From an uncultured Bacilli bacterium (GTDB lineage Bacteria; Bacillota_I; Bacilli_A; RF39; UBA660), in assembly GCA_947589675.1 (NCBI GenBank), contig CANQCI010000017.1, positions 1 to 38,261 on the forward strand: a DNA stretch of 38,261 nucleotides, given 5' to 3'. Positions 1 to 32,226 of this stretch are shown piece by piece. The notes under the pieces are model-generated. The model saw only the letters and a program-made list of their open reading frames with translations, ran no database searches and had not been told where the DNA came from. The position numbers and the translations under genes were made by a program. Each line of letters opens with the position of its first letter. Positions within the stretch are counted from its first letter, which is position 1.

Positions 1-549
1 CAACATACAACAAGTTTAGCTAATAGTGCACAAGATAATAGCTATCGGTATTCCGGAAATAACCCAAATAACTTTGTCTGTTTTGGTGATGGTAGTGAGG
101 CTTATAACAATGGAGGAACCTCATGCCCAGATACCAATTTATATCGAATAATTGGTGTATTTGGCAACCAAATAAAATTAATCAAGTCGGAATACATAAC
201 CAGTGCTGAATTAGGAATAGCCAGTGATGGTAAGCCAAGTACAGGAAGTTATGATAGTTTAAAAAGAGTAAAAGTAGCACCAAGTGAAGGATTTTACTGG
301 AATAAAACAGCTGATAATACATGGGGAAGTAGTACCTTATATACAGCATTAAATAATGGAACTAGTGGCTATTTAAATAAATTAGGTGCAATATGGACAA
401 ATAAAATAGCAACAACAACGTGGCATGTCGGAGGACATAGTGATTATAAGGTAACACCAAAAGTAATGTATGATGCAGAAATAAAATCAAGTCCAACAGT
501 ATCGGCACAAATTGGATTAATGTATGCTTCGGAATTAGAACACGTATGA
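1..549 (+). CDS. Host surface protein fragment, interrupted at its 3' end by the prophage
   Basis: Frame 1 is open from the window edge to the TGA at 547-549, giving 182 residues with no start in view. The protein contains NNFVCFGDGS, LYRIIGVFGNQIKLIK, IATTTWHVGG and AQIGLMYAS. From memory, this pattern belongs to large multi-copy secreted or pilin-like proteins of uncultured gut Bacilli, in which IGLMYxSDYGYA is followed by a further Trp-rich C-terminal part. Here the motif stops after YAS and the frame closes six codons later as ELEHV-stop, 7 bp from the end of the convergent integrase gene. I infer that the phage inserted inside the gene and that the last codons are phage DNA. The product is probably secreted, but its signal peptide lies outside the window. 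Family assignment rests on memory of the motif, not a search. Confidence 0.7.
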   Translation, partial: QHTTSLANSAQDNSYRYSGNNPNNFVCFGDGSEAYNNGGTSCPDTNLYRIIGVFGNQIKLIKSEYITSAELGIASDGKPSTGSYDSLKRVKVAPSEGFYWNKTADNTWGSSTLYTALNNGTSGYLNKLGAIWTNKIATTTWHVGGHSDYKVTPKVMYDAEIKSSPTVSAQIGLMYASELEHV

Positions 550-556
550 TGCCCCC
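520..556. other. attL: Probable left attachment site (attL)
   Basis: The host-like reading frame loses its conserved motif right after codons 511-531 (IGLMYAS), and phage sequence with the integrase stop codon (556-558) follows at once. Large serine integrases usually lie beside attP, so the crossover should fall in roughly 520-550. The exact core cannot be fixed without the right junction, which is outside the window. Confidence 0.55.
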
Positions 557-2163
557 TATATTTTAAGTTTAATTTCTAGTGTGAAATCATTTGTGGTATT
601 TCCCCATCTACTGGCTTTTTCCTTATTATAATAAACTACATCAATTATTTCTGATAGTAGTTCATTTTTTTCTTCAACAGTGGCATTTTCATATAATTCT
701 AAGCAAGTTTTAATGTTTGGAATAATTTTAGTTATGTTTTCAGAATCAATTTGTTTAATTTTTTCTTCAATATTTATTTTTGTATTATTATATTTTTCTA
801 AATCATTATTTAAGGAATTAATTCGTAATTTAAAAGTTTCTTCATCATAAATGCCTTTTTCTAAAAAATCACAACATTTCATTTTTTGGTTTTTAATATC
901 ATCTATTTTTTTTGTTAAATTTTTAATGTCATTTTGATATTTAGCGGTATTATCCTCAAATTTTTTATTATATTCATCGAGATGAGTTTCATAATTATTT
1001 AATATTTTTTTTAATTCTTCAAGTAATTTATTTTCTACTAAATCTAAATATGATTGTGGCATTTTACAGGTTGGGTTACGACATACTAAAGCTGAACCAT
1101 AATTTTTTTTATATGATATCCGCCTCATTAAAGTATAGCCACATTTTTTACACCTAATTAATCCTGAAAGTGGATTTTTTAAAGTGTAGTCTTTTTTTAC
1201 TTTTTGAGAATTGCTATATCTGTCTAATTTTTCTTGTACTTCCAATCCTTCTTCCCATGTTATTATTGGTTCGTGTCTTCCAACTGCTTCAATACAATTA
1301 GAATTTAATGGTCTTATTTTTTTTATTTCTCCATTAACCAATTTCAGAACACTTTTTCTTTTATACCATGTTACATGTCCTGCATATACACGCCAACTTT
1401 TTAACTGATACCTAACAGTTTCAGAAGTCCATACTTTCCCAGTAGGAGTTAATATTCCTAAATCATTTAATTTGTTAGCAATAGTCGGAGGAAATAAATT
1501 ATCTTTTAAGTAATAATCAAATATTTTTCTTATAATCTTACTATCTTCATTTGGAACCATGGTATAACCTTTTTCTCCCTCCAGCTTTTTTTTAGTATAT
1601 CCGAATTTTGCTTTTGATGTTATACATTTTCCCTCACGTACGGCTTGTTCTCTTCCTCTAGCTAATATTTTTTTAACATATTGTAAATATTTTCTTGATT
1701 GATACAAGCTATCTTCAAAATAGGATAAGTCAAATTCATCATCTAAATTAAAAACTCTAGTAGGTACAATAATCCTAGTATTACTTAATTTAAACTTTTG
1801 AACTATTATTCCTTGGTCTATGGTATTCCCTCGAGCTAGTCTTTCTATTTCAACAACTAAAACTCCTTTAACATCATTTTTTTCTATTTTTTGCAATACT
1901 TTTTGTATCTCTGGTCTATCTTCAATTGTATCTCCAGAAACGACTTCTCTAAAAATATTTTTTTCGGGAATTTTACAGCCAAAAGTATTAGTTGCAAAAT
2001 TCTGCAATATTGTTTCATGTCTTTCTAAAGTTTTTTCTATTGGTTCATCACTAGAAAGTTCATTATCTTTTCTTGATTTTCTTAAATATATAATAATATA
2101 ATCCACTAATTCTTGATTAGTTGCATTTTCTAAATTAAATAGTTTTTTGATAGTTTCTAACAT
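556..2163 (-). CDS. int: Large serine recombinase (phage integrase)
   Basis: 535 aa, a normal length for large serine integrases. The resolvase domain covers roughly residues 20-170. The likely nucleophile is Ser30 in IYLRKSRKD, and conserved pieces include REVVSGDTIEDRPE and VEIERLARG. A recombinase domain follows (SKAKFGYTKKK to about residue 300). Next come a zinc ribbon (CKKCGYTL ... CRNPTCK, about residues 338-370) and a long coiled coil (about 385-470), as expected for the DNA-gripping arm. It should catalyse attP x attB integration and, with a directionality factor not identified here, excision. The ATG at 2161-2163 has AAGGAAGT upstream. The gene ends 7 bp from the interrupted host frame, the usual position of a prophage integrase next to attL. 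Confidence 0.95.
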   Translation of the reverse strand: MLETIKKLFNLENATNQELVDYIIIYLRKSRKDNELSSDEPIEKTLERHETILQNFATNTFGCKIPEKNIFREVVSGDTIEDRPEIQKVLQKIEKNDVKGVLVVEIERLARGNTIDQGIIVQKFKLSNTRIIVPTRVFNLDDEFDLSYFEDSLYQSRKYLQYVKKILARGREQAVREGKCITSKAKFGYTKKKLEGEKGYTMVPNEDSKIIRKIFDYYLKDNLFPPTIANKLNDLGILTPTGKVWTSETVRYQLKSWRVYAGHVTWYKRKSVLKLVNGEIKKIRPLNSNCIEAVGRHEPIITWEEGLEVQEKLDRYSNSQKVKKDYTLKNPLSGLIRCKKCGYTLMRRISYKKNYGSALVCRNPTCKMPQSYLDLVENKLLEELKKILNNYETHLDEYNKKFEDNTAKYQNDIKNLTKKIDDIKNQKMKCCDFLEKGIYDEETFKLRINSLNNDLEKYNNTKINIEEKIKQIDSENITKIIPNIKTCLELYENATVEEKNELLSEIIDVVYYNKEKASRWGNTTNDFTLEIKLKI

Positions 2164-11972: not shown

Positions 11973-12172
11973 AATTTAAGAAAATAATTGATAATCCATC
12001 TATTGAAAATCAGATTAGATTTAAAAAAGAGTGTTTTTATAGAATAAAAAAAGATATGGAAATAAACGGAGATAATGGATTTGGTTATAAAAAAATACAA
12101 CTTGAAAATATGCAAGAGGATATCAAAAAGTTAGAAAATGAAAATAAAAGAATTATTAATAAAAAAAATTGA
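11969..12172 (+). CDS. Small basic helical protein, unknown function
   Basis: 67 aa; its ATG overlaps the preceding TGA (ATGA). It is rich in Lys, Glu and Asn (ENMQEDIKKLENENKRI). The tail overlaps the start of the recombinase gene by 35 bp in another frame, so one of the two starts may be chosen wrongly or the genes are coupled. Confidence 0.5.
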   Translation: MKFKKIIDNPSIENQIRFKKECFYRIKKDMEINGDNGFGYKKIQLENMQEDIKKLENENKRIINKKN

Positions 12173-13529
12173 TAATCATTTAAAAGATATTGCTCCTATA
12201 TTAAATACAAGTGAATGGGGATTAGAGGAAATATTAAAAAGTAATGGAGTAGTATCTTTAGATGATTTACAAAAGTTATTTGATTATTTAGGAATAGAAA
12301 TTGTTGATAACCCAAATAAAATAATTGAATATAAATTGTCAACAAATGTGAATACAAAAATATTTAAATATTATGCCGCATATTGGTTAGAAAAAAAGAA
12401 ATATGAAATAAGAGAAAGCACTTATGCTAATTATGTTAATTTATTTATGTATAATATAATACCTTATTTAGGTGATATACCTTGTGAACAATTTAATAAT
12501 AAATTACTTCAAATGTTTGCGTATTGGTGTAAAGAAAAGGGTGGTAAAGAAAAAAAAGGTATTTCAGAACATTATATAAGAGATTCTTTATTACTTATTA
12601 AATCAGTTATAAGAGATGGACAAGAAGAACATGTATTTCCTGAATTTGCTTTTAAACAAATAAAAATTCCAAAAACAATACAAGTTGAAACAAAAAAACA
12701 AGTTTATAATGAAAAAGAATACAAAAAAATAATAGATTATATTTTAAAAAATATTTCGTCCAAAAGTGTTGGTATTTTATTAGGAATTTATACGGGTATG
12801 AGAATTGGTGAAATATGTGCATTACAATTTAAAGATGTTGATTTTGAAAGAAATATAATAAATGTTAATAAAACCATTCAAAGAATTTATAATCCTTTAG
12901 ATGAATTAGAACCATCAAAGATAATTATTACCCCTGGAAAAACTAAAAATTCAATTAGAGAAATACCAATTACAAATGAAATAATAGAAATATTAAAAAC
13001 AATAAAAAAAGATGAAAGTGATTATATATTAAGTAATTCACATAAACCAATTGAGCCTAGAACATATAGAAAATTTTATAATAGTTTTATGAAGAAAGCT
13101 GGAGTAGAACCTATAAAATTTCATGCTTTAAGACATACGTTTGCTAGTATAAATATTGAAAATGGAACAGATGTAAAAACTATTAGTGATATTTTAGGTC
13201 ATTCTGATATTTCTATTACATTAAAGACTTATACTCATACATCTCAACAGGCAAAATTAAAAGCCATAGAAAAATTTAATTCTATGTTTCAAAATCAAGA
13301 TGAGAAAATTGCTTTTACTAGCAAATATAAAGGAAATATATGCTGTATAAACAAAAGAACCAATAAGCTCGATTTTATTGGTAATATTCAAGAAGTTTCA
13401 AACTATTTAGCAGAACCCAGTAAATATGTATGCGATGTAATAAATAGTATTAAAAATGATGATGTATATAATATAATTCCCCAAATAGAGGGTATAACAC
13501 ATAAGAATGGTGTTTATGTCGGTGGATAA
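12138..13529 (+). CDS. Tyrosine recombinase with an extra C-terminal domain
   Basis: 463 aa. After a helical N-terminal extension (1-65), a SAM-like core-binding domain covers about 70-175 (ESTYANYVNLFMYNIIPYLG). The catalytic domain has Arg222 (TGMRIGE), Lys268/270 (TPGKTKNSIREIPI), His329 and Arg332 (FHALRHT), His355 (ILGHS) and the nucleophile Tyr365 (LKTYTH): all residues are present. Beyond the usual end, residues about 392-463 form a separate domain (GNICCINKRTNKLDFIGNIQ ... KYVCDVINSIKN) that resembles the NUMOD1-type DNA-binding repeat of mobile endonucleases; this resemblance is by eye only. The phage already has a serine integrase, so this enzyme probably serves another function or marks an inserted module. 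The ATG has only a weak ribosome site. Confidence 0.88.
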   Translation: MKIKELLIKKIDNHLKDIAPILNTSEWGLEEILKSNGVVSLDDLQKLFDYLGIEIVDNPNKIIEYKLSTNVNTKIFKYYAAYWLEKKKYEIRESTYANYVNLFMYNIIPYLGDIPCEQFNNKLLQMFAYWCKEKGGKEKKGISEHYIRDSLLLIKSVIRDGQEEHVFPEFAFKQIKIPKTIQVETKKQVYNEKEYKKIIDYILKNISSKSVGILLGIYTGMRIGEICALQFKDVDFERNIINVNKTIQRIYNPLDELEPSKIIITPGKTKNSIREIPITNEIIEILKTIKKDESDYILSNSHKPIEPRTYRKFYNSFMKKAGVEPIKFHALRHTFASINIENGTDVKTISDILGHSDISITLKTYTHTSQQAKLKAIEKFNSMFQNQDEKIAFTSKYKGNICCINKRTNKLDFIGNIQEVSNYLAEPSKYVCDVINSIKNDDVYNIIPQIEGITHKNGVYVGG

Positions 13530-17913: not shown

Positions 17914-18387
17914 ATGGCTGGTCGCAAAAAGGAACCTATTGACCTTGTTATAGCGAAAGGAAAAAAGCATTTATCCAAGGAAGAAATTGCAACAAGAAAG
18001 GCTCAAGAAATAAAAGTTGATTTATTTGATATTTCTCCACCAAATTATTTAAATGAGAAACAAATAAAGGAATTTTTAGAAATAGCCGGCAAGCTAAAAC
18101 ATGTAGGAATTATGACAGAACTAGATGAAGATGCTTTAGCAAGATATATTATTACGAAAGATGAATGTATTCAAACTGATAATTTATTAACAAAAGAATT
18201 AAGTAAGAAAAACAAGATAGATATTGATAAAATTTATCGTTTACAATTAATTCAAAATAAATTGCATAAACTAGTGCGAACATTAGCCTCCGACTTAGGT
18301 TTAAATGTATCCGCAAGAACGAAATTATGTGTTCCTAAAGAACCAACCGACCCACCGGAAAATAAATTCTCGAAATTTGTCAAATGA
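17914..18387 (+). CDS. Terminase small subunit, P27-like
   Basis: 157 aa from the ATG at 17914, behind GGAGGTGGGAG. Longer in-frame versions would translate the hairpin region and lack a ribosome site. It begins MAGRKKEPIDLVIAKGKKHL, the pattern of P27-family small terminase subunits, then has helical blocks (ELDEDALARYIITKDECI) and ends LNVSARTKLCVP, also typical. It binds packaging-site DNA and brings it to TerL. Its stop overlaps the TerL start (ATGA). Confidence 0.9.
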   Translation: MAGRKKEPIDLVIAKGKKHLSKEEIATRKAQEIKVDLFDISPPNYLNEKQIKEFLEIAGKLKHVGIMTELDEDALARYIITKDECIQTDNLLTKELSKKNKIDIDKIYRLQLIQNKLHKLVRTLASDLGLNVSARTKLCVPKEPTDPPENKFSKFVK

Positions 18388-20111
18388 AAAAGAAAGACCG
18401 AGTAACGGAATATGCCCAAAAAGTGGTTGATAAAAAGGTTTTTTGTGGACATTATCATTATCTAGCGTGTTTAAGACATTTAAAAGATTTAGAAAGGCAA
18501 AAAACAAAGGAATTTCCCTATTATTGGGACATCGATGAAAGTGAAAGAATAATTGATTATGCTCAAACTCTGACAATATCCGAGGGAATAGAAAAGAAGC
18601 CAGTAAAATTATTGCCAGCTCAAATATTTGATATAGGTTCACGCTTCGGTTGGAAAAAGCGTAATGGCTTTAGAAGATTTAGAAGAAGTTATAAATCAGA
18701 AGCCCGTCAAAATGGGAAAACTTTTGAAAACGGGATAATGGGAACTTATATTGGTAATTTTTGTGGTTATAATTACGGTAAATTATTTACCGTAGCAACC
18801 AAGAAACGTCAAGCAAGATTAGCTTGGGAAGAAATGGCAAAATTTATTAATGCCGATGAAGATTTACAAGAAAAATTTGAAGTAAAAGATTATAAATCGA
18901 TGATAATATGTAATGATACAAATTCAACAATAGAAGCTTTATCCAAAGAAGCGGGACTAGAAGAGGGATTTAGATCTATATTTAGTTCAATCGATGAACT
19001 TCATCAACATAAAAATAATCGAATATATAAAGCTATATATGATGGGACGGTTTCATTAGATGAAACATTAGTATCGATGATAACCACTCGTGGTTTTGAT
19101 ATCGGCCCGACAAGTTTTAGCTACGAAATGGATAAATATGCCATAAAAATTTTGGAGGGGGTAGCCACCGCCGAAGATTTTTTCGTGGATATTTATTGCT
19201 TAGATAAAGACGATGATATATGGGACGAAAAAAATTGGATTAAAGCTAATCCCTATTTGGCAAGTACCGAAAAAGGTATGGAAGCCTTAAGATTAGATGC
19301 CGAAACCGCAAAAGATATGGGTGGTAGTGATTTAACCGATTTTATCACGAAAAGATTAAATATGTGGTCGAGAGATGAAAATTCTTATTTTATCTCATTA
19401 GATGATTGGAAAGAATGTGAATGTGATGAAACATTAGAAAATTATCGAGGAATGGCTTGTTATTGTGGTTTAGATTTATCGCACGGCGGAGATTTAACGA
19501 CTTTAGCTTTAGAGTTTCCTTTAGAAAATGATGAGTTTTATATTTTTTCTCATTCATTCATGCCTAAAGGAAGATTACAAGAACACATAAAAAGTGATTT
19601 AGCTCCCTATGATGTTTGGAATGATAATGGTTTAATTTCCGTAACAGGAGGAGTAACTGAATATAAAAATAATTATAAATTTATACTTAGTTATATAAAA
19701 CAATTAATAGCTGATTATGAAATAAAAATAAAAGTAATTGGTTATGACCCCCATAATGCTGATGGTTTCTTAGGTGATTTAGAAGAATTGGGCTGTCCAT
19801 TATTAGAAATAGGTCAAACAGCGAAGTTTTTAAATGATGCCACTGTTGATGTTCAATTAAATATAAAATCTAAAAAATTAAAGTATGACCGCCGGAACGA
19901 ATTATTAAGTTGGTCGTTTTCTAATGCCAAAATTGTAGCAAATTCCTTTGGTGAAATAAAAGTTGATAAAGAACCAAAAAAAATATACCAAAGAATTGAC
20001 CCAGTTGATGCGGCAATAGATGCCCATGTTGCTTACATGAAATTTAAGGAAGAAATAGATACAGAAGCCACAATGCAAAACTATTTAGAAATGATGGAAT
20101 GGCAAGAATAA
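18384..20111 (+). CDS. Terminase large subunit (HK97-like)
   Basis: 575 aa, full length. The ATPase domain has a variant Walker A KSEARQNGKT (104-113), as usual for this family, and a Walker B-like stretch IDEL with Asp204-Glu205. The nuclease domain has GLDLSHGGDLTT, GYDPHNADG and the C-terminal DPVDAAIDAHVAY, supplying its metal-binding acids. It cuts the DNA concatemer and pumps it into the prohead. Stop-start overlap with TerS indicates coupling. Confidence 0.95.
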   Translation: MKKKDRVTEYAQKVVDKKVFCGHYHYLACLRHLKDLERQKTKEFPYYWDIDESERIIDYAQTLTISEGIEKKPVKLLPAQIFDIGSRFGWKKRNGFRRFRRSYKSEARQNGKTFENGIMGTYIGNFCGYNYGKLFTVATKKRQARLAWEEMAKFINADEDLQEKFEVKDYKSMIICNDTNSTIEALSKEAGLEEGFRSIFSSIDELHQHKNNRIYKAIYDGTVSLDETLVSMITTRGFDIGPTSFSYEMDKYAIKILEGVATAEDFFVDIYCLDKDDDIWDEKNWIKANPYLASTEKGMEALRLDAETAKDMGGSDLTDFITKRLNMWSRDENSYFISLDDWKECECDETLENYRGMACYCGLDLSHGGDLTTLALEFPLENDEFYIFSHSFMPKGRLQEHIKSDLAPYDVWNDNGLISVTGGVTEYKNNYKFILSYIKQLIADYEIKIKVIGYDPHNADGFLGDLEELGCPLLEIGQTAKFLNDATVDVQLNIKSKKLKYDRRNELLSWSFSNAKIVANSFGEIKVDKEPKKIYQRIDPVDAAIDAHVAYMKFKEEIDTEATMQNYLEMMEWQE

Positions 20112-20133
20112 AAATGAAAAGGAAGTGATTGGA

Positions 20134-21393
20134 ATGGGATTTACTAAAAAAATTATGAATAAATTATTCGTGCGTAATTCAGTTGATATGGATAATTGGA
20201 TTAAATTAGCGGATTTTTTAGGAATAGATAAAAATACAGATAAAGATGTTCGCTCCGAAGCCACTTATTTTGCTTGTTTAAAACTTTTAAGTGAAGCGGT
20301 AGGAAAGTTACCTTTAAAGTTATTAAGGCAAACTGAAAAAGATGGTGTTGTGGAAGCAACAAGCCATAGCTTGTATAATATTGTTCGCAATCGTCCTAAT
20401 AGATATATGACATCAACAACATTTTGGAGTACTACGGAATATTATCGCAATCATTTTGGTAATTCTGTGTCATTAATAAGTGGTTATGGGGAAAAATTAA
20501 CACTTATTCCCTTAGATTTTTCAGAAATTGATATTTGGTATGATGATGCCAAAATATTAAGTGAAATTCCGGATGTTTATTATATTTATAATCATGGGGG
20601 AAAACGGTATTGTTTTAGCAGTGAAGAAGTATTACATTTTAGAACATCAATTTCCGAAGATGGAATTACGGGTTTAAGTGTTAGAAATATCTTAAAGAGT
20701 ACAATTGATGGAAGTCAAAAGGCACAAAACATGCAAAATAGTCTTTATGACAGTGGATTTGTTGCTAAGGCGGTTATTCAATATACAGGTGATTTAAACA
20801 GTAAATCGACGGAAAATTTTTTAGCTAATATTGAAAAATATGCAAAAGGACAAATACCTACATCGAAAAGTTTAATTCCAATTCCTCTTGGTTCACAATT
20901 AACGCCTTTAAATACTAAATTAGGCGATAATGAATTTTTGGAATTAAAAAAATATAGTTCCTTGCAAATTGCATCGGCATTTGGAATAAAGCCTGTTCAA
21001 ATAAATGATTATTCAAAGTCAAGTTATGCTTCGAGTGAATCGCAAAACTTGGCTTTTTTAGTGGATACATTGTTATTTATTTTGAAACAGTATGAAGAAG
21101 AATTAAATTATAAATTATTATCTCAAGATGAACTAAAAAAGGGTTACTTTTTTAAATTTAATTATGGCATGCTTTTAAGAGCTGATATGAAAACCCAAAT
21201 AGAAAGCCTTACAAAAGCTGTCCAAAACTTCCTTTATACGCCGAATGAGGCAAGGGCTTTTTTAGATAAGCCGGCGGTTGACGGGGGCGATGTTTTAATC
21301 GGGAATGGTTCCACGATAAAACTTGACCAAATAGGATTGCAATATTCGCAAAATTATAATAATTCGCCTAATACTGAGGGAGGTGATGAATAG
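20134..21393 (+). CDS. Portal protein (HK97 family)
   Basis: 419 aa from the ATG at 20134 (GGAAGTGATT upstream; an in-frame GTG lies inside that site). Contains the portal pieces ACLKLLSEAVGKLPLKLLR, LYNIVRNRPN and the later ASAFGIKPVQINDYSKSSYAS. It forms the ring through which DNA enters the head. The gene order TerL-portal-protease-capsid is the HK97 order. GGGAGGTGATG at its end serves the next gene. Confidence 0.95.
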   Translation: MGFTKKIMNKLFVRNSVDMDNWIKLADFLGIDKNTDKDVRSEATYFACLKLLSEAVGKLPLKLLRQTEKDGVVEATSHSLYNIVRNRPNRYMTSTTFWSTTEYYRNHFGNSVSLISGYGEKLTLIPLDFSEIDIWYDDAKILSEIPDVYYIYNHGGKRYCFSSEEVLHFRTSISEDGITGLSVRNILKSTIDGSQKAQNMQNSLYDSGFVAKAVIQYTGDLNSKSTENFLANIEKYAKGQIPTSKSLIPIPLGSQLTPLNTKLGDNEFLELKKYSSLQIASAFGIKPVQINDYSKSSYASSESQNLAFLVDTLLFILKQYEEELNYKLLSQDELKKGYFFKFNYGMLLRADMKTQIESLTKAVQNFLYTPNEARAFLDKPAVDGGDVLIGNGSTIKLDQIGLQYSQNYNNSPNTEGGDE

Positions 21394-22200
21394 GTGAAAA
21401 AATTTTTTGAGTTTAAAAATATCACGCAAAACACAGCTGATTTATTCATCTATGGTGAAATAGTTCAAGAAAAGTCTGTTGACTGGTGGACGGGTGAAGA
21501 AAGTGATACAGATGTATCTATTATGGATTTTAAAGAAGAACTTGAAAAAATAGGCAATGTTCAAACTTTAAATATTTATATTAATTCCCCAGGTGGTGAT
21601 GTTTTTGTAGCATCAGCCATGATTAGTATGCTTGAAAGAAAGAAACAATCAGGAACAACTATAAATGCTTATGTAGATGGTGTAAGTGCTAGTGCGGCAT
21701 CATTTTTAATGTGTGTTGCGGATAACATTTATATGTACAAAAATTCGGTTGTAATGATTCATAAACCAATGAGTTTTGCGTATGGTAACGCCAATGATAT
21801 ACAAAAGGTTATAGATACTCTTGATAAAATCGAAAGTGCAACTATGCTACCGATGTATATGAGTAAAGCCAAGATTAGTGAAGATGAATTAAAAGAATTT
21901 ATTAATAATGAAACTTGGTTTTCGGCACCGGAAATGGAAGAATATTTTAATGTAACAGTTTTAAATGAAGAAAAAGTGGCGGTTGCCTCAATTTCAAATG
22001 AATTGTTTAAAAAATATAAAAATATTCCTGAAAATATTCGCAAAGTTTTGAATAATTTCCATCAAAAACCAAATTTAGATAATACTTTAAAAGATTATCA
22101 AGATGATGTGGTTGTTAATAAAAACGAAGAAAATATAAAAACAAGATTAAGCCTGATTAAAGGCTTTTTAATTGCCGAAAATTTGAAAGAGGGTGAGTGA
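21394..22200 (+). CDS. Head maturation protease, ClpP/S14-like
   Basis: 268 aa from a GTG at 21394 with GGGAGGTGATG upstream. ClpP-like fold: INSPGGDV (63-70), catalytic Ser100 in DGVSASAAS and His123 in VMIHKP. It processes the prohead, most likely removing the N-terminal coiled-coil segment of the capsid protein. It ends in TGA overlapping a GTG of the next frame. A helical C-terminal tail (LSLIKGFLIAENLKEGE) may act as a scaffold. Confidence 0.93.
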   Translation: MKKFFEFKNITQNTADLFIYGEIVQEKSVDWWTGEESDTDVSIMDFKEELEKIGNVQTLNIYINSPGGDVFVASAMISMLERKKQSGTTINAYVDGVSASAASFLMCVADNIYMYKNSVVMIHKPMSFAYGNANDIQKVIDTLDKIESATMLPMYMSKAKISEDELKEFINNETWFSAPEMEEYFNVTVLNEEKVAVASISNELFKKYKNIPENIRKVLNNFHQKPNLDNTLKDYQDDVVVNKNEENIKTRLSLIKGFLIAENLKEGE

Positions 22201-22202
22201 TT

Positions 22203-22391
22203 TTGAAATTAAGAGTATGCGTTAAACCAGATTTAACTCTTATTAAAGAAAAAAAGAAAGTTAAATATGGAGAAGTATTTGAAGTAGATGAAAATCGAGG
22301 AAAAGAAATATTAAAAGCAACTTATTATGGTAAGCCTGTGGCGGAAGTAGTTGCTGATGAAAAAGAAAATAAAAATTGTTCAAATAAATAA
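22203..22391 (+). CDS. Small head-region protein, unknown function
   Basis: 62 aa from a TTG at 22203, the start best spaced from GAGGGTGAG; a GTG at 22197 is too close. MKLRVCVKPDLTLIKEKKKV followed by YGEVFEVDENRGKEIL is a short beta-rich protein of the type often found next to capsid genes. It may be a decoration or assembly factor. No direct evidence. Confidence 0.55.
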   Translation: MKLRVCVKPDLTLIKEKKKVKYGEVFEVDENRGKEILKATYYGKPVAEVVADEKENKNCSNK

Positions 22392-22405
22392 GGAGAGTGA
22401 TAAAA

Positions 22406-23527
22406 ATGAACAAAAGAATGCGAGAAATAAAGGAAAGAATGGAAATTTTAAATAAGGAAGCGGTAGAATTTTATAATTCTAATGATTTCGAAAATGCGGA
22501 AAAAAGAATTAATGAAATCGAAAACTTAGAAAAAGAATATAAAATAGCTGAAAAATTATTTAAAACAGATAAGGAAACAGTTGAAGAAGAAATGCCTAAA
22601 AATACTGTTGATAAAAAAATTGTGGCATTTGCAAATGGCATCAGAAATGCGGCTACAAAAATGAATGAAACTACCGGAACTGAGGGTGGTTATACAGTGC
22701 CAGAAGATGTTGTTACCGATATTGAACATTTACGGGAAGCAAAAGAGTCATTACAAGATTTAGTAACAGTTGAAAATGTAACGACTATGTCCGGTAAAAG
22801 AACCTATAAGAAAAGAAGTCAAATGACTGGTTTTTCCGAAGTTGGTGAAGGTAAAAAAATTGGTGCTAAAGCTACACCACAATATGCATTAATGGAATAT
22901 AAAATCAAAAAGTATGCTGGTATTTATCCAACTACTAATGAATTATTAGAAGATAGTGATGCTAATATTTATAATGAACTTACCAGTTGGATTGCTGATG
23001 AAAGTCGAGTTACAAGAAATAAATTAATAATTAATGCTATTAAAACTAATACTGAAACTGATTTAAAGGATTTAGATGGAATTAAAAAAGCATTAAATGT
23101 TACTTTAGGTGCGGCATTTAAAGCAACATCAAAAATTATAACTAACGATGATGGATTACAATATTTAGATACTTTAAAAGATGAAAAAGGTAACTATTTA
23201 TTACAACCAAGTGCCAGTGATCCTATGAAATTAGTTTTATGTGCTGGGGCTAATACAATTCCTGTTAAAGTATTCCCAAATGCTGATATGCCAACTGATG
23301 GTGAAAAAGTTCCTTTCACAATTGGGGATTTAAAAGAGGGGATTAAATTATTTGATAGAAAGAGAATTAATATTTTAGCCTCTAATACAGCGGTTGTAGG
23401 TAGTGATGAAGATGTTTTAAATGCTTTTGAAGAAGATTTATCATTATTTAGAGCTATTGAACGTGAAGATGTTGAAGTTCGTGATAAAGATGCGTTTGTA
23501 AACGGCTATATCACTGTTACACCCTAG
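22406..23527 (+). CDS. Major capsid protein, HK97 fold
   Basis: 373 aa from the ATG at 22406 (AAGGAGAGTG upstream). Residues 1-70 form a charged coiled coil (RMREIKERMEILNKEAVEFY), the delta domain that serves as scaffold and is normally removed by the protease. The body has GTEGGYTVPEDVVTDIEHLR, then YPTTNELLEDSDANIYNEL and, near the end, DAFVNGYITVTP. It ends CCC TAG, and the +1 frame continues without any start codon as an Ig-like domain (see 23523-24224), so a longer 605-aa form is expected in a minority of subunits. Confidence 0.95.
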   Translation: MNKRMREIKERMEILNKEAVEFYNSNDFENAEKRINEIENLEKEYKIAEKLFKTDKETVEEEMPKNTVDKKIVAFANGIRNAATKMNETTGTEGGYTVPEDVVTDIEHLREAKESLQDLVTVENVTTMSGKRTYKKRSQMTGFSEVGEGKKIGAKATPQYALMEYKIKKYAGIYPTTNELLEDSDANIYNELTSWIADESRVTRNKLIINAIKTNTETDLKDLDGIKKALNVTLGAAFKATSKIITNDDGLQYLDTLKDEKGNYLLQPSASDPMKLVLCAGANTIPVKVFPNADMPTDGEKVPFTIGDLKEGIKLFDRKRINILASNTAVVGSDEDVLNAFEEDLSLFRAIEREDVEVRDKDAFVNGYITVTP

Positions 23528-23528
23528 C
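23519..23528 (+). promoter_or_regulatory. Probable +1 programmed ribosomal frameshift site (ACA CCC TAG)
   Basis: The last capsid codon CCC (23522-23524) is followed by the stop TAG. If the proline tRNA slips forward one base it still pairs with CCT (23523-23525) and translation goes on AGC ACG CCC into the open frame. Listeria phage PSA is a known example of +1 frameshifting at a proline codon before a stop in structural genes. Confidence 0.75.
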
Positions 23529-24224
23529 ACGCCCGATGAGGGCGATATCGGGACTGTAACAGTTAATATAACTTCTGGTAATTTAAAACTATCAGAAGCG
23601 GTAACCGATAAAGAAATAGGTTCTGTAACTGTCGATGGCGGAACAGAACCTTATTCTTATGAATTAACTGGTACAGACGCTGATAAGTTCAAAATAGAAG
23701 AAACTAAAGTTAAAATAAAAGAAACTTTAACGGAAGCTAAAACTTATACAGCAAAAGTAAAGGTTACTGATAAAAATAGTAAGGAAAAAGAGTCTGATGA
23801 ATTTAACTTAATTGTTGAAGACCCTGAAATAAAAGTAAGTATACCAAGTAATGAAACTCAATTATTAGGTGAAAAGACTGTTGCGGATTTATGCGATAAT
23901 GTAAATCTTGAAACTGATGAAGTAACTGGGGCTTTAAATTATGTTGAAAATTGGGCTGATTTTTCAAATAAGGAAGATGAACAAACTGGAAACTTCTTAC
24001 CATTGTATTTTGAGGAAGCGAAAGGACAAGCTAAGGGAACAGTTAAGTGCGAACTTAAAGGAACTGGGGCTAAAGTTAAAAAGCCAGTTGCGGTTGACCC
24101 TAAAGATGGCTTGATTGTTTTCCAAATTCATGACAATGATAATACAATTGAAATTACAAGCGATGGTAAAGATACTAAAACACTTACACTAAGTAGTTTA
24201 GATTTAAAAAAAAAGAGTGGTTAA
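23523..24224 (+). CDS. Ig/cadherin-like C-terminal extension of the capsid protein, made by +1 frameshift
   Basis: The frame is open from the frameshift site to TAA at 24222-24224, adding 232 residues, with no ATG, GTG or TTG for the first 160 codons. The first domain has GSVTVDGGTEPYSYELTGTD and TYTAKVKVTDKN, the pattern of cadherin/Ig-like beta-sandwich modules. The second half (about 23830-24215) has TVKCELKGTGAKVKKPVAV. Such domains on capsids are thought to bind surface sugars or mucus. A separate protein starting at the TTG 24003 would lack both a ribosome site and the first domain, so I prefer the fusion. Confidence 0.82.
   Translation, partial: PSTPDEGDIGTVTVNITSGNLKLSEAVTDKEIGSVTVDGGTEPYSYELTGTDADKFKIEETKVKIKETLTEAKTYTAKVKVTDKNSKEKESDEFNLIVEDPEIKVSIPSNETQLLGEKTVADLCDNVNLETDEVTGALNYVENWADFSNKEDEQTGNFLPLYFEEAKGQAKGTVKCELKGTGAKVKKPVAVDPKDGLIVFQIHDNDNTIEITSDGKDTKTLTLSSLDLKKKSG
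24209..24215 (+). promoter_or_regulatory. Candidate -1 frameshift heptamer A AAA AAG
   Basis: A AAA AAG lies in frame with the Ig-like extension, three codons before its stop. Slipping back one base leads to GAG TGG TTA ACA GAT AGC GTG and the open frame ending at 24346. No clear downstream pseudoknot was identified, so this may also be a simple homopolymer error. Confidence 0.45.
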
Positions 24225-24232
24225 CAGATAGC

Positions 24233-24346
24233 GTGAAAACATCAATAAATAAAATATTAGGTGAAGATACTTCTACTGAACAAGATATTGAGGAAAGTGA
24301 AGCCGATAATATTTTAACAAGAATTGTTGGAGGTGATGCTGAATGA
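24233..24346 (+). CDS. 37-aa ORF, possibly the tail of the capsid fusion
   Basis: GTG at 24233 opens VKTSINKILGEDTSTEQDIE and the frame closes at 24344-24346, overlapping the ATG of the next gene. No good ribosome site precedes the GTG. Read from the -1 slip at 24215, the same frame adds EWLTDS in front, 43 residues in all. Either it is translated alone or it is a second C-terminal addition to the capsid fusion (646 aa total). Confidence 0.5.
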   Translation: MKTSINKILGEDTSTEQDIEESEADNILTRIVGGDAE

Positions 24347-24936
24347 GTGTTGTAAGTGAAAAATTAAATCGTATTGAAAGTGCAACCAATACGATAAGGA
24401 CTAAAGTTGGGGCTAGTGAAGTTAATACTATTGAAGAAGTTGCGGATATGGTAAAAGATATACCTATTTTTTATTTCGATGGTGATGTTAATAAAGAAGA
24501 AAATAAAACCATGTTTGACGATATTTATAATAATTATATTAAATTTAAAAAACCATTTTTGCTTGCTGGAACAAATCCTGCAAAAGAAAACAGTTATTTA
24601 TTTGATTGTCATTCTTTTTTAAATATTGGGTATATTCTTTTTTCTTCCATAGTCATTTTACGAACTTCAACAACAGAAAAAAAAGGATTAAAAGTTGTTC
24701 CAATTTCTTATGATTTTATTCAATATAAGTTTCATGAAAAGAAAATTGAATACGTAGCTTCTAATAATGCATATATGTTAGATGTAAATTCGATAGACTC
24801 CATAGTTGGTATAAATAATACTACTGAATGGACTCCAACCAAAGATTACGGACTTGTTCATAAAAAATATGTAGATGATATAGTTGGTAACATCAATAAT
24901 GTACTTAATACATTAGTTACGGTAAGTGAGGAATAA
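24343..24936 (+). CDS. Head-fibre-like protein with adaptor N-terminus
   Basis: 197 aa, GGAGGTGATG before the ATG at 24343. The N-terminus (EKLNRIESATNTIRTKVGAS, then TIEEVADMV) is a short helical adaptor also used by the next gene. The C-terminal end has EWTPTKDYGLVHKKYVDD, a motif of phage fibre collars, often followed by a coiled coil. I infer a trimeric fibre or decoration attached to the capsid. The middle domain is not recognised. Confidence 0.65.
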   Translation: MSVVSEKLNRIESATNTIRTKVGASEVNTIEEVADMVKDIPIFYFDGDVNKEENKTMFDDIYNNYIKFKKPFLLAGTNPAKENSYLFDCHSFLNIGYILFSSIVILRTSTTEKKGLKVVPISYDFIQYKFHEKKIEYVASNNAYMLDVNSIDSIVGINNTTEWTPTKDYGLVHKKYVDDIVGNINNVLNTLVTVSEE

Positions 24937-24937
24937 T

Positions 24938-25981
24938 ATGGCAACGATAGAAGAACAATTAAATCAATTAAAGCAAGATAAGACTGTTTTAGTTCAAAAT
25001 TTAGTTGAAAAGGGAATTGAAGCATCCGATGATGAAACATTTACAGAATTAGTGCCTAAAGTTGCGGAAATACAAAGTGGGGGAAATATAGAAGAGTATA
25101 TTAGTAGTACGTCAGATGAAAAAGAAATTGCTGAAAGATATGTATCAAAACAATTTGCTTATAGAATAAAAAAGCTGCCCGATTTAGATTTTTCTAATTT
25201 GGTAGATGAAAGGTGTTTACAACATTTATTTCAGTCGCTTCCAAAAATAAAATCGTTGCCTAATATTAAATTAGGAAATATTTTAAAATTAAATTTAGCA
25301 AATATTTGTTCTCAATGTGAAGACTTACAAGATATATCAAATTTGGTTAATGCAATAAAAGATAAAAAAATTTTAAATTTGACTAGTGCTTTTACTAATT
25401 GTAAGAATTTAGATTATTCATTTTTTAATGAATTAGATACAGATGAATTAACTCAAATGAATAATACTTTTTTAAATAGCAACTTAGCAAATATTCCTTT
25501 ATTTAATACAGAAAATGTAATAAATATGACTGGGGCATTTTCAAATTGTAATGAATTGACAACAATTCCACAATTTAATTTAGCAAAATGTGAAAAAGTT
25601 GATAGTATGTTTAACGGTACTAATAATTTAGAGTCTTTACCTGAACTAGATTTTAGTTCTGTAAAAAATTTAAATAATTTTTTAAACAATAGCAAACCAA
25701 ATTTAACATCTTTAGGTGGCTTTAAAAATTTAGGCTTAAATTATACTACTAGAAGTAACAATAATAACTACTATAAATTAGACTTATCATATTGTTCGGC
25801 TTTAACGAGGGAAAGTGTACTTAATGTCTTCAATGGCTTAGCTGATTTAAATACGGTATATGCTGACACTCTTTATACCCAACAAATAGTATTAGACCCA
25901 ACTGTAAATTCTTTATTACAGCCTGAGGATATAGCAATAGCAACTGATAAAGGTTGGAATATTACTACTCAATCACATTAA
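24938..25981 (+). CDS. Surface-exposed LRR-like (BspA-type) head protein
   Basis: 347 aa from the ATG at 24938, one base after the previous stop, with GTGAGGA upstream. After the same kind of adaptor (LNQLKQDKTVLVQNLVEKG), repeats rich in Leu/Asn follow: LPDLDFSNL, INMTGAFSNCNELTTI, VDSMFNGTNNLESL, LDFSSVKNLNNFLNNS, LDLSYCSAL. This is the BspA/DUF285-like leucine-rich pattern seen in gut-phage virion proteins. The ligand is not known; a role in binding the host or the mucosa is plausible. Placed between capsid and connector genes, it is likely on the head. Confidence 0.7.
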   Translation: MATIEEQLNQLKQDKTVLVQNLVEKGIEASDDETFTELVPKVAEIQSGGNIEEYISSTSDEKEIAERYVSKQFAYRIKKLPDLDFSNLVDERCLQHLFQSLPKIKSLPNIKLGNILKLNLANICSQCEDLQDISNLVNAIKDKKILNLTSAFTNCKNLDYSFFNELDTDELTQMNNTFLNSNLANIPLFNTENVINMTGAFSNCNELTTIPQFNLAKCEKVDSMFNGTNNLESLPELDFSSVKNLNNFLNNSKPNLTSLGGFKNLGLNYTTRSNNNNYYKLDLSYCSALTRESVLNVFNGLADLNTVYADTLYTQQIVLDPTVNSLLQPEDIAIATDKGWNITTQSH

Positions 25982-25999
25982 CAAGGTGGTGAAATAAGA

Positions 26000-26239
26000 A
26001 TGGAATTAATTCAAAAAGAAAAATTTAATATATTAAAGGCTAGCGAGGGTATGCACTTGCGAAATATTGATGATGAATATAAGCAAGCTTATGTAGATGA
26101 AAATAGTAATGAAATTGAGGAACATTTTCCTTACTATTTTCCTGAATGTTATTTACCTAAATCTATTACCTTAGAGGAAGCAAATAATATTTATATAGAA
26201 GAACCAATATCCAAAGAAGTTCAAGGTGATACTGTATGA
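26000..26239 (+). CDS. Small acidic head-region protein
   Basis: 79 aa, AAGGTGGTG before the ATG at 26000. Contains MHLRNIDDEYKQAYVDENSN and an acidic, Pro/Tyr-rich second half. No known family. Its stop overlaps the next ATG. It may take part in head completion. Confidence 0.55.
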   Translation: MELIQKEKFNILKASEGMHLRNIDDEYKQAYVDENSNEIEEHFPYYFPECYLPKSITLEEANNIYIEEPISKEVQGDTV

Positions 26240-26547
26240 CAGAAGCTGAGAATAAAAAAGATATTGTTTCAATCGAGGAAGTAAATACTTATTTAGGTAT
26301 AGATTATGACGATGATATTTCTAAAGAAAATATTAAAAGATTTATTTCTGTTGCCGAAAAATATATCCAAGGGGCGATAGATAAAGTTCCAGAAAATGAT
26401 GAAAGGGTTAAGCAATTAGCCCTTTTTATTATTGAAGATTTATATGACCGTAGTTCTTATTCGGTAAAGGAAAATGCGGCAATAACCCGAATAAAAAATA
26501 GTATTATTATGCAATTACAATATGGGGATGCAAATGACGAGTTATAG
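26236..26547 (+). CDS. Head-tail connector (gp6-like)
   Basis: 103 aa. Helical protein with SIEEVNTYLGIDYDDDISKE, FISVAEKYIQGAID and RVKQLALFIIEDLYDRSSY, the pattern of gp6/QLRG-type connector proteins that form the ring under the portal. Coupled ATGA overlap with the previous gene. Confidence 0.82.
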   Translation: MTEAENKKDIVSIEEVNTYLGIDYDDDISKENIKRFISVAEKYIQGAIDKVPENDERVKQLALFIIEDLYDRSSYSVKENAAITRIKNSIIMQLQYGDANDEL

Positions 26548-26857
26548 AATACCTATAAAAATCCAAAAATTAGATGAAAATACGGAAGTATGGGCTGATT
26601 ATTATCATACTCATGCCAACATTAATAAAACTCGTGGTAAAGAATATAATAATGCTTCAACTAATATAAGCTTCTCAACTTATGATTTTAATATTAGATT
26701 TTGTGAGAAAGTTAAAGAAATAATTTTTAATACGGAAATATATCGAATTGTCTATGAAAATAGAGTATATAACATTAAAAGTGTCGACCGCTATGCGGAA
26801 AATCATAATAATGTAACTTTAGTAGGAGATTATAATGGCTCGCAAGGTAACCATTGA
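26534..26857 (+). CDS. Head closure protein (head-tail joining)
   Basis: 107 aa from the ATG at 26534, one of three nearby in-frame ATG codons (26522, 26528); GGGG lies six bases upstream of the chosen one. Beta-rich protein (WADYYHTHANINKTRGKEYN ... YRIVYENRVYNIKSVDRY) fitting the SPP1 gp16/HK97 gp7-like stopper family. It overlaps both neighbours. Confidence 0.75.
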   Translation: MTSYRIPIKIQKLDENTEVWADYYHTHANINKTRGKEYNNASTNISFSTYDFNIRFCEKVKEIIFNTEIYRIVYENRVYNIKSVDRYAENHNNVTLVGDYNGSQGNH

Positions 26858-27233
26858 TGAATTGTGTGCTTGTATTTCCGAAGAACTTAAAGGATATTGT
26901 GATTCAGTTATTACAGGAATTAAAAAAGCCAACGATGAATGTATGCAAGAATTTGTTAAAGATACTAAAAAGCATGCTCCTCGGGGATATCGCAAAATAA
27001 AAAAGTATTATACTCACATTGCTAGTAAAACAAAAGTAGATACACCAAATAGAAAAGTAAATGTTTGGTATGTTAAAAAGCCTGAATATCGCTTAACTCA
27101 TTTGCTTAAAAATGGACATATGACCGCTAATGGGAAAAGAACAAAACCGCAAGATTTCATAACCCCAAGTTACGAAAAAATGGTTGCAAAATATAGCCAA
27201 AAAGTGGAAGAGGTAATAAAAAATGGACATTAA
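26835..27233 (+). CDS. HK97 gp10-like neck/tail completion protein
   Basis: 132 aa, AGTAGGAG before the ATG at 26835. Features of the gp10 family: CMQEFVKDTKKHAPRGYRK near the middle and RLTHLLKNGHMTANGKRTKP with the usual LLxxGH pattern. It joins the head and tail. Confidence 0.85.
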   Translation: MARKVTIDELCACISEELKGYCDSVITGIKKANDECMQEFVKDTKKHAPRGYRKIKKYYTHIASKTKVDTPNRKVNVWYVKKPEYRLTHLLKNGHMTANGKRTKPQDFITPSYEKMVAKYSQKVEEVIKNGH

Positions 27234-27564
27234 AAAATGGTTCGAAGATGGAACCGGTTTAAAAATAAAAGAACTAAGATATTTAAAAATGCCTCCATTA
27301 CCATACAACATTTATATTGATGACCAAAATTATCGGGGGTCAGACCAATTGAATAATATTATCGAACATAATGTTACGATTGAACATTACAGTAAAGATT
27401 TAAAAAATTCAAATGAACTAGAAATAGAAAATTTTTTAAATAAAAATAGTATCCATTTTGAAAAAAATAGGGAATGGTTACAAGATGAAAATATGTTTGT
27501 TACTTTATATGAATTAGAAACTTATATAGAGAAAAGAAGAAAGGAAAGTGGTTTAAATGAGTAA
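27223..27564 (+). CDS. Tail terminator/minor tail-component-like protein
   Basis: 113 aa, ATG at 27223 overlapping the previous gene, with AGAGGTAA upstream. Short alpha/beta protein (LPYNIYIDDQNYRGSDQLNN ... VTIEHYSKDLKNSNELEIE) at the tail-terminator position between the gp10-like gene and the tail tube gene. Assignment rests mainly on gene order. Confidence 0.7.
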   Translation: MDIKKWFEDGTGLKIKELRYLKMPPLPYNIYIDDQNYRGSDQLNNIIEHNVTIEHYSKDLKNSNELEIENFLNKNSIHFEKNREWLQDENMFVTLYELETYIEKRRKESGLNE

Positions 27565-28111
27565 AAGAACAAACGACACTATTACTTTAGGTAGTGGTAA
27601 ATTATATGTAAAAGAATTTACAGGAGAAATTCCTGAATATACCGACCTTGAAACAGAAGAAAACAGACTTGCTTGGATAAAAGGTGGAGCGGCTTTAAAT
27701 TATACTGGGGAATTTTATGATGCCGAAGATGATTTAGGTATGGTTTCTAAAAGAAAAATTAATGCTGAAAATGTAACTTTAACAAGTGGTATTATGACTT
27801 GGAATGGTAAAACCTTAGAAAAACTATGTTCTACCGCTAGAGTTGAAGAGGGCAATGGAAAACGGACAGTTAAAATTGGTGGCGTTAATAACGACAGTGG
27901 AAAACAATATATAATTCATTTCTTACATGAAGATAAAGTTGATGGTAATGTAAGACTTACGCTTGTCGGACAAAATACAAGTGGATTTACTTTAACATTT
28001 GCTAAAGATAATGAAACGGTTATTGATGCGGAATTTTCAGCTGTTAAAGGTAAACTTGATAAAGAGGGGACTCTTGTCATTTACGAAGAAGAAATGGATG
28101 CCGCAGCTTAA
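27557..28111 (+). CDS. Major tail tube protein
   Basis: 184 aa, AAGGAAAGTGG before the ATG at 27557. Features: NDTITLGSGKLYVKEFTGEI at the start, GAALNYTGEFYDAEDDLGMV in the middle and VIDAEFSAVKGKLDKEGTLV near the end, as in tail tube proteins of Gram-positive siphophages. It polymerises into the tail tube; the following gene is its chaperone. Confidence 0.9.
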   Translation: MSKRTNDTITLGSGKLYVKEFTGEIPEYTDLETEENRLAWIKGGAALNYTGEFYDAEDDLGMVSKRKINAENVTLTSGIMTWNGKTLEKLCSTARVEEGNGKRTVKIGGVNNDSGKQYIIHFLHEDKVDGNVRLTLVGQNTSGFTLTFAKDNETVIDAEFSAVKGKLDKEGTLVIYEEEMDAAA

Positions 28112-28126
28112 ACTTAGAGGAAAATT

Positions 28127-28438
28127 ATGTACGATATGACAAAATTCTCAGCTAAATACTGGGAAGTAAAATTTATTGATGGTAATGTTTTGCATATAGC
28201 AGCAATAAATGTTGAAACATATGGAAAGTTAATAATGATGCTTAATAGTTTAACTAATCCGAATGAAACAGCTTATGAAAATCTTTTGGAATGTGTGTAT
28301 TTAATTATAAATGATAATAAAGAAAAAATTGTTTATGATAAAGAAACATTACGAAAATTATTATCACAAGAATTACAAATGGAATTTGTAAATAATTATA
28401 CAGATTGGTTGATTAAAGAGGTGGAGGAAAAAAACTAA
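28127..28438 (+). CDS. Tail assembly chaperone, short form (gpG-like)
   Basis: 103 aa, AGAGGAAA before the ATG at 28127. Acidic helical protein ending EVEEKN then TAA. Two codons before the stop lies A AAA AAC. Position between tail tube and tape measure is that of lambda G. It should guide the tape measure during tail assembly. Confidence 0.88.
   Translation: MYDMTKFSAKYWEVKFIDGNVLHIAAINVETYGKLIMMLNSLTNPNETAYENLLECVYLIINDNKEKIVYDKETLRKLLSQELQMEFVNNYTDWLIKEVEEKN
28429..28435 (+). promoter_or_regulatory. -1 programmed frameshift site A AAA AAC
   Basis: The heptamer is in frame with the chaperone gene and is followed immediately by TAA (28436-28438). Slipping back one base gives CTA AAA ATT CCC and the open frame to 28710. 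This is the classic way siphophages make the gpG/gpGT pair. Confidence 0.92.
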
Positions 28439-28710
28439 AAATTCCCTATTACCCATCAAAAAAGGGCGATAGGGAAAATCCATATATATTAGAAACTATT
28501 CAAGAAAAAACAATTGCCAATTATTTAGGTATTCCGATTAGAGAAACATTAAAGTTAAACATATTGGAATATAAGTTTTTTTTACGAGAAGCATTTATCT
28601 ATAACTGTTCGATGACTGAGGCGGGTATAGATTATTTAATTAATGCTAAAAGATTAGAAACAACTAATCCAGATCGTGAGAAATTAAGAAATAAAATTAA
28701 CAAGGGCTAA
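28435..28710 (+). CDS. Tail assembly chaperone, frameshift extension (gpGT-like)
   Basis: After the -1 slip the frame adds 91 residues (LKIPYYPSKKGDRENPYILE ... PDREKLRNKINKG), for a 194-aa product. No ribosome site or sensible start opens this part alone. The T-like domain is helical and should contact the tape measure. Its stop codon lies inside the stem of the terminator at 28704-28739. Confidence 0.9.
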   Translation, partial: LKIPYYPSKKGDRENPYILETIQEKTIANYLGIPIRETLKLNILEYKFFLREAFIYNCSMTEAGIDYLINAKRLETTNPDREKLRNKINKG

Positions 28711-28739
28711 TGCTATAAAGTGTTAGCCCCCTTTTTTTT
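28704..28739 (+). terminator. Intrinsic terminator between tail chaperone and tape measure genes
   Basis: GGGCTAA (28704-28710) pairs with TTAGCCC (28723-28729), extended by two wobble and two normal pairs, followed by CC and eight T. It overlaps the chaperone stop. It probably reduces, without stopping, transcription into the tape measure gene 17 bp further on. Confidence 0.85.
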
Positions 28740-28755
28740 ATGGGGAGGATTTAGT

Positions 28756-31700: not shown

Positions 31701-32226
31701 TGAGGGAACAGAAAAAGGTATAAAAGATAAAAAAGCCACAAGTAGTGCTTATTCAGCTGTTCAAAATTTTGCTAGCAATATTTTAAGTAAATTAAAGAGT
31801 TCCTTAAAAGAAAAATCTCCATCTAAAGCAACCGAAGAAATGGGGATTAATATCGATGAGGGAATTATTGTTGGAGTCAAGAATAATGAAAAAAATGTTT
31901 TAAATAAAATTAAAAAATTTGGAGAAAGTACTTTAGATGCTTTAAAGAACAGTTTAGATGATGATATTACTCTAAATACGGATTTTAATGGGACAAGAAA
32001 TATTATGATGAAGACCTTTACTGACTCTAATTCTAAAGTAGCTGATAATAGAACCGCTGAGGATTTAAAGACATTAACTTCATTATTAAATAAATATATG
32101 CCAATCATTGCTCAAAATGCTGGTCATGAAATTGTTTTAGATGGTAAAAAAGTTGGTAAAACAATAGCTCCAACTATTAATAAAGAATTAGGGACTATTG
32201 CTTCCAAAGAACAAAGAGGCTATTAA
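28756..32226 (+). CDS. Tail tape measure protein (TP901-like)
   Basis: 1156 aa from the ATG at 28756, behind GGGGAGG; an in-frame start 12 codons earlier lies in the terminator. Long coiled coil at the N-terminus (residues about 20-135), then the TP901 core (FESAFTGVEKTVDATSKELS ... MQMTVNRIKDLQITIGNKLL), a hydrophobic stretch (PYVLGAVGITALVAGIIAFA) likely to enter the membrane, another coiled coil (about 600-800) and a repeat region with VPDAIVKGL/IPEKIKNGI. The length sets the tail length. No lysozyme or peptidase motif is visible. Confidence 0.93.
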   Translation: MASRVVKGIEIELGSDATKLGKALKDIESKSNVLQSQLKQVNKLLKFDPSNTEILNQKQDILAESIKETSDKLAVLQEAEKQVQKQFAEGKISQEQYRELQVEILKTKDNLKYLQKQQEQMNKTFAQSLEEVGKKLSNTGDSIEKIGKKTAIFSAAATTALVSSAKSAIDFESAFTGVEKTVDATSKELSDLKKGIREMAKELPSSTTEISAVAEAAGQLGIKTEDILSFTKVMINLGNSTNLSAEEAASSLAKFANITNMSAKDYDRLGSTIVALGNNFATTEADIVQMATRLAATGELTGLTQSQILSLATAMSSVGIEAEAGGTAMSKLLKKMQVAVETGSGNLENFAKIAGMTSSQFKKSFEEDAVKALSAFIGGLNDTKRNGKSAIAILQDMDLSEVRLSNTILSLANASDLMNDAVDLGNNAWKQNVALTNEANKRYSTTSSKMQMTVNRIKDLQITIGNKLLPVVEKGLNAINKFIDNFNELDDSTKNIIITIAKLVAAISPVMLITGKVVGGIGDTINAFSKLSKATEAATGSQLAHNAAILANPYVLGAVGITALVAGIIAFAKAQDDATLKNNEYATSLVDIIERQKEFEDSLKDTITTRDEAIKNVEVEVGAAEKLLNKLTELEAVENKTNGQKEQMAALVQQLNELMPDLNLEYDKEKDALNQSTDAIKNHIIAQKELMKAKVAQESLTDIAKQMVEQEMLLAETTEENTKLEKQYQEAKKKTAELLKQWESFSYYEQNNDERAKKIHDQLKQAREAERDLKEAYEESNKVLNEQQNSLNKINAEYDKTKNYADNMFNQAELVEKISNLTDLAAQAGVDIPDKLVHSLQENKYKIPESIAELNDLIKFDDALTKAQKAGADVPDAIVKGLNAGEYNITEANNRLNRWINFQEALAKSDKAGIEIPEKIKNGILSGELSVSDAMKELDNIISTEGNKIPKDMEKIGNDANEKFSTTIKNYKGYYEAGKFVVEGTEKGIKDKKATSSAYSAVQNFASNILSKLKSSLKEKSPSKATEEMGINIDEGIIVGVKNNEKNVLNKIKKFGESTLDALKNSLDDDITLNTDFNGTRNIMMKTFTDSNSKVADNRTAEDLKTLTSLLNKYMPIIAQNAGHEIVLDGKKVGKTIAPTINKELGTIASKEQRGY

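Follow-up and report, generated by a model that had tools for sequence, protein, structure and literature searches.

A temperate-phage attachment site in the constant scaffold of a multi-copy gene family targeted by a diversity-generating retroelement

The window, i.e., the entire 38,261-base contig C17 of a draft genome (G000; 1.46 Mb in 60 contigs), starts with a host reading frame that is broken by phage DNA. Judged by its sequence, the left junction is a serine integrase junction within a conserved coding motif, and the attachment site is both real and unusual. The interrupted gene reads as a member of a family that forms the target set of a diversity-generating retroelement (DGR), and the phage appears to cut it just 5' of the variable region, a circumstance missing from the preliminary description of this DNA. 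The finding couples a temperate-phage attachment site with the repeated constant scaffold of host genes that are diversified by retrohoming. The element is very probably a tailed-phage prophage that owes its integration to a large serine integrase of its own, a reading that covers the whole anatomy described here, including an attB in a DGR target.

The host frame (window 1-549, plus strand) corresponds to the 5' part of a DGR target gene of the DUF6273 type; the contig start cuts it short, and it is 77-89% identical to 12 paralogues over around 178 amino acids. Its translation ends in ...SPTVSAQIGLMYASELEHV*, with the stop at 549 located in phage DNA. The codons for IGLMYAS begin at 511 and make up the left half of attB (B; 511-531, plus strand), as delimited by the motif and by comparison with the paralogues. 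Identity with the 12 intact paralogues extends to the GA at 532-533 and is then lost; the paralogues read GAY TAT GGA TTT GC, or nearly so, at this place. The frame is cut at this dinucleotide, which belongs to the D codon of IGLMYAS|DYGFA. The residues 3' of the cut position are DYGFA in 11 of the 12 near-identical paralogues and DYVFA in the remaining one. This agrees with the preliminary description, in which the host frame was said to break within a conserved motif at a serine integrase junction. The motif itself had been given as IGLMYAS(DYGYA), of which the first part stands and the second is to be corrected to the residues above. The D codon begins with this GA (532-533), the inferred crossover dinucleotide: it is common to the left junction and to positions 118-119 of another contig, C6, and is compatible with the junctions of three relatives as well.

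A large serine integrase of 535 aa is encoded next to this junction (556-2163, minus strand). Its Pfam matches are Recombinase (2.3e-17), Resolvase (3.5e-11) and a zinc ribbon (4.7e-7), so that the Resolvase N-terminal, Recombinase and zinc-ribbon domains by which large serine integrases are recognized are all present. The surroundings of the gene are typical as well: it adjoins attP, with its 3' end 22 bases from the GA core, the core is short, and attP, as rebuilt from two contigs, contains an imperfect dyad. G000 has one integrase gene of this kind. The identities of the other phage genes come from a scan of ten proteins besides the integrase. A CI-like phage repressor (2304-2741, minus strand; PHROG transcriptional regulator, 6.5e-17) follows the integrase. 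Structural genes extend over 18384-34631 on the plus strand, comprising those for the terminase large subunit (18384), portal (20125), major head protein (22397), tape measure (28720) and a tail protein (32883), and a holin gene and a truncated endolysin gene (37487-38261, plus strand) lie at the contig end. The prophage also holds a second integrase, of the tyrosine type (12138-13529, plus strand; PF00589, 2.3e-33; phrog_1), which we count against the main reading. Since the contig ends inside the endolysin gene, the window lacks the right end of the prophage.

The closest relatives of the integrase in a scan of genome contigs are three proteins with 52-54% identity (loci L134, L135 and L136), encoded in MAGs with a split cotJC, a gene of the manganese catalase family. 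A GA core is compatible with their junctions, and their attB falls in the codons for ELGH in that gene. The gap between integrase and core is 25 bases in all three relatives versus 22 in the window, and their integrase-side half-sites have 11-13 of 18 bases in common with the putative half-site of the window (an attP half; 534-563). Given the similar core, spacing and half-sites, the window integrase belongs with these and differs in its attB. The splitting of cotJC, which encodes a spore-coat-type manganese catalase, is comparable to that of spsM by SP-beta, and for C. difficile, a passage of PMC11222575 mentions a prophage with a CotJC homologue beside it.

As the window is the entire contig, its right junction must lie elsewhere. 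The missing C-terminal half, which was expected at that junction, is indeed absent from the window; a C-terminal half that restores the frame is present at the start of C6, and we infer the link between the two contigs. Among 28 matches to the C-half of a paralogue in G000, C6:118-357 stands out as an orphan: it lies at the start of its contig and has a frame of 107 aa. C6 begins with 117 bases of non-host DNA, followed by GA TTATGGATTTGC..., which continues in frame to a stop at 432. When the host flanks of C17 and C6 are joined at GA, a frame of 282 codons results, the last of which is a stop, with zero internal stops. The candidate attR core is C6:118-119. The phage half-sites of both contigs form a dyad in which 20 of 30 positions match, and only two of the 76,462 30-mers in the window score as high against the C6 half-site, one of them being the site itself. 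As a yardstick, the same comparison gives 21/30 for the relative G292, in which both prophage ends are found on one long contig, and 19/30 for G291, in which they are on two contigs. In the third relative, G293, two candidate C-halves occur, one on another contig (23/30) and one on the integrase contig (11/30), and the latter weakens the yardstick. The second C-half of G293 was also considered as a wrong-pair control, and rejected as such because the 11/30 copy shares the integrase contig and the 23/30 copy does not. No phage structural genes were recognized by eye in the 8.7 kb before the 11/30 C-half, which may belong to another element. These two split cotJC C-halves of G293 (L198 on C25 and L199 on C14) could stem from two elements or from a mixed assembly.

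In G291 and G292, the distance between the junction and a lysis gene, recognized from the translations, is around 0.5 and 3.5 kb, respectively, at the end opposite to the integrase. With lysis genes this close to the far ends, the unassembled stretch between the endolysin gene and C6 is probably short. As long as this stretch is unassembled, the link between C17 and C6 rests on the dyad and the frame, by which the start of C6 can be taken as the putative attR of the window prophage. An assembly chimera of phage and host contigs might be considered as well, given that the two contigs have ends close to the element and that the draft assembly counts 60 contigs. Yet, the left junction falls at GA like those of the three relatives, the integrase spacing is similar and the half-sites pair as a dyad, and we regard a chimera as extremely improbable.

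A more serious objection arises from the relatives: as they target cotJC, the site in a DGR target could be a one-off. The window prophage might then be a lysogen at a secondary site, with cotJC as the normal target of the integrase and the DGR-target insertion as an accident at a site with a partial match. In each of the three nearest relatives, cotJC is split at a GA core, and the cotJC frame of G000 is intact and unoccupied, although its site differs in sequence. Nonetheless, the relatives are merely 52-54% identical, a distance at which integrases may differ in specificity, and the spacing and dyad in the window appear as regular as in G291 and G292. Such an accident is possible, if somewhat doubtful, and with one insertion seen, the different attB may reflect either a stable new specificity or a secondary site.

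The rebuilt attB is not a singular sequence in G000. A 23-mer motif pattern, with at most two mismatches, has 25 matches in this genome and its reversed control has none, which bears out the earlier expectation that the motif recurs in many paralogues. The motif in its scanned form yields 26 sites in G000. Twelve of these agree with the rebuilt attB in 34-38 of 42 bases, including 20-22 of the central 22, and the remaining 14 match it at 29 or fewer of 42. A 32-base attB pattern finds 12 sites at 0-1 mismatch in G000 (nine at 0) and two sites at 2-3 mismatches in one congener, and is absent from the other 96 genomes in the same scan. From these counts, attB is multi-copy in the species and, within the genomes sampled, nearly confined to it. 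The preliminary description had also raised the possibility of the same nucleotide core in host paralogues, and 12 near-identical attB are now found there; these other 12 attB-like sites may be usable by the phage. Conservation of the attB DNA beyond what the protein needs was considered and rejected, as synonymous change is not unusual in the codon windows around the core, where it amounts to 0.20 and 0.13 versus 0.09-0.41 elsewhere.

A search of G000 for reverse transcriptases (RTs) gave four matches, of which the one on C37 adjoins a target gene. This locus (L093) contains, in this order and on one strand, a paralogue, a template repeat, a MutS-I-like ORF, an Avd-like ORF and the RT. The template repeat, found by sequence comparison, comprises 99 bases (L093:5338-5240). 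The 124-aa ORF (L093 4661-5035) matches MutS domain I at 1.4e-4, and the RT (358 aa) contains RVT_1, with GLPIGNMTSQ and YMDD read directly. A motif of the GLPIGNMTSQ type is presumably a mark of DGR RTs. The C37 locus combines this DGR-type RT with a template repeat near the RT, with adenine-specific variable repeats and with Avd, the latter as a 121-aa ORF of which the matches to NF033474 (4e-9) and PF22296 (7e-5) are both below the curated cut-offs. When 27 of the 28 C-half loci were scored against the template (L091, which holds the template repeat, was left out), 12 had less than 25% non-adenine mismatches. Across those 12 variable regions, mismatches fall on 221 of 394 template adenines, compared with 64 of 791 positions with other template bases. 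In the assignment of regions to templates (24 regions scored, with L013 counted twice and L022 and L023 missed by the pattern), 11 of the 12 attB-bearing genes fit the first (C37) template and L013 fails, while three further paralogues were assigned to a second template, on C55. The orphan variable region of C6 fits the first template, from which it differs at 19 of 33 adenines and at one of 66 other bases. Hence, the attB-bearing set and the first DGR target set are nearly the same genes.

The second DGR (L187 on C55, 2216-2306 and 2728-4083) comprises a target gene and a template repeat, ORFs that resemble MutS and Avd, and the initial part of an RT, at which the contig ends; a C-part matching this RT is found at C19:27866-28591, near the end of C19. 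An ORF thus accompanies each DGR RT: the C37 copy (L093 4661-5035) has the MutS domain I match, and the C55 copy (L187 2996-3376) looks alike. The MutS-I-like ORF possibly encodes a DGR accessory protein.

A full-length paralogue, of 959 aa, has a C-terminal domain with a DUF6273 match (5.2e-8). DUF6273 domains of DGR-targeted phage proteins are described as C-lectin-like in passages of PMC10743442. At the N-terminus, the full-length paralogues have a hydrophobic segment that ends in ...GATYAFFQAQKG or similar, which suggests that the target protein is exported, and it would plausibly be displayed on the cell surface. The earlier designation as a host surface protein fits this N-terminal segment, while NCBIfam gave no match for the target protein; a PDB search with the target domain had 0 matches. 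The crossover is situated around 120 bases 5' of the variable region, at residues with little or no variation among ten paralogues. Given this position, the insertion strips the variable tip from one copy. Elsewhere in the genome, a 308-aa DUF6273-like gene is flanked by genes with prepilin-like N-termini (L095 on C5, 207-2288), hinting that some DUF6273 family members may be part of pilus-like structures. A group-II-intron-like reverse transcriptase (L095 on C5, 4678-5985; QGG and YADD read directly) lies a few kb from this family member.

We propose that the phage circle carries a GA-centred attP, which the integrase would pair with one of around 13 equivalent scaffold sites. Within one member of the host family, the attB would occupy invariant codons of the scaffold (IGLMYAS|DYGFA); the C-terminal DUF6273 (C-lectin-like) domains of this family would be diversified by the DGR. 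In the lysogen, one target protein would lack its hypervariable tip and the 12 other genes would retain a near-identical attB. The loss of one among around 13 redundant copies would plausibly be cheap for the host, and the phage would gain many entry points. As neither half has stops, excision should restore the gene. That the host frame is exactly restored once the flanks are joined, both halves being free of stops, would also suit a regulatory switch, in which regulated excision of the phage restores a surface gene as for SP-beta and spsM. However, the gene is one of around 13, so that switching a single copy may matter little, and such a switch seems very unlikely. The preliminary description had gone further and had individual surface genes switched off and on by insertion and excision; this is unsupported, with one integrase gene found in G000 and no second occupied site detected by a junction pattern in 386 family genomes.

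A broader version of the proposed mechanism is that the phage lineage is specialized on DGR targets. The codons 5' of the variable region would stay constant while the tip mutates, and would offer a permanent, many-copy landing site. Each lysogeny would then silence one hypervariable adhesin, different cells of a population would lose different variants, and phage-driven variation would be added on top of the host DGR. We consider this extension unlikely. Matches to the integrase (E <= 0.001) occur in 70 of 291 family genomes, G000 included, and the motif in a target-gene context was found in none of 32 integrase loci (L105-L136), many of which have only around 1.5 kb of flank. A pattern for the same junction matched in 11 of the 386 family genomes, once in each, with the window as the sole relevant match; the other 10 were judged unrelated on inspection, five of them being antisense to a glycosyltransferase. 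Short C-terminal frames in congeners were considered as further right junctions and rejected, as the two inspected (L184 and L185) are cut by contig ends. In IMG/VR, a relative of the integrase was not found, the motif pattern occurred in 11 contigs with a target-type gene in none, and the joined attP 25-mer had 0 matches. One insertion of the integrase is seen, and all of its candidate sites belong to one paralogous family; multi-targeting in the sense of one integrase cluster with more than three target gene clusters was not found in this analysis.

Several known systems share part of this anatomy, as described in the cited passages. In Bacillus subtilis, the SP-beta prophage likewise uses a large serine recombinase and splits a host gene, spsM, in frame, and joining restores the gene (PMC4191935). 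Regulated excision has been shown there, whereas the present case concerns a multi-copy DGR target family and a predicted excision. The phiSa3int prophage in hlb of Staphylococcus aureus also inactivates one host gene in a way that is reversible in principle (PMC6597384), but the target there is a single gene. Multi-targeting large serine recombinases similarly have several possible attB per host (PMC10083194), yet these fall in more than three distinct target gene clusters and the recombinases often carry DUF4368, in contrast to the one paralogous family found here; DUF4368 is absent among the Pfam matches of the window integrase. The cotJC-splitting prophages (L134-L136) have a related integrase, a GA core and similar integrase-side half-sites, and differ in having attB in cotJC, at the codons for ELGH, and not in a DGR target.

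On the DGR side, multi-target DGRs also have one template repeat for several variable regions, while prophage attachment in a target is not treated in the relevant passages (PMC6642488). Tentaclins, which are DUF6273/C-lectin DGR targets, resemble the present family in having the variable region in a DUF6273-type domain, but they are phage-encoded receptor-binding proteins and the genes described here are bacterial (PMC10743442). In titles and the first lines of abstracts, no prophage attachment site within a DGR target was found described, and in passages from some of the papers containing both 'diversity-generating retroelement' and 'attB' the two terms were unrelated. Roux and colleagues kept a single variable repeat for each RT where several were found, according to a passage of PMC8144416, and multi-copy families like that of G000 may therefore be under-recorded. 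The mechanism itself is ordinary site-specific lysogeny; it is the coincidence of the attB set and the DGR target set that is surprising. A multi-copy attB also raises the question whether lysogens of one population have their prophage in different members of the family, and hence have different surface repertoires. Finally, the finding exposes a bacterial genus rich in matches to DGR RTs and target domains: among 20 genomes of the genus, 17 have a DGR RT match (E <= 0.001), and all 20 have target domain matches, with 10-35 per genome.
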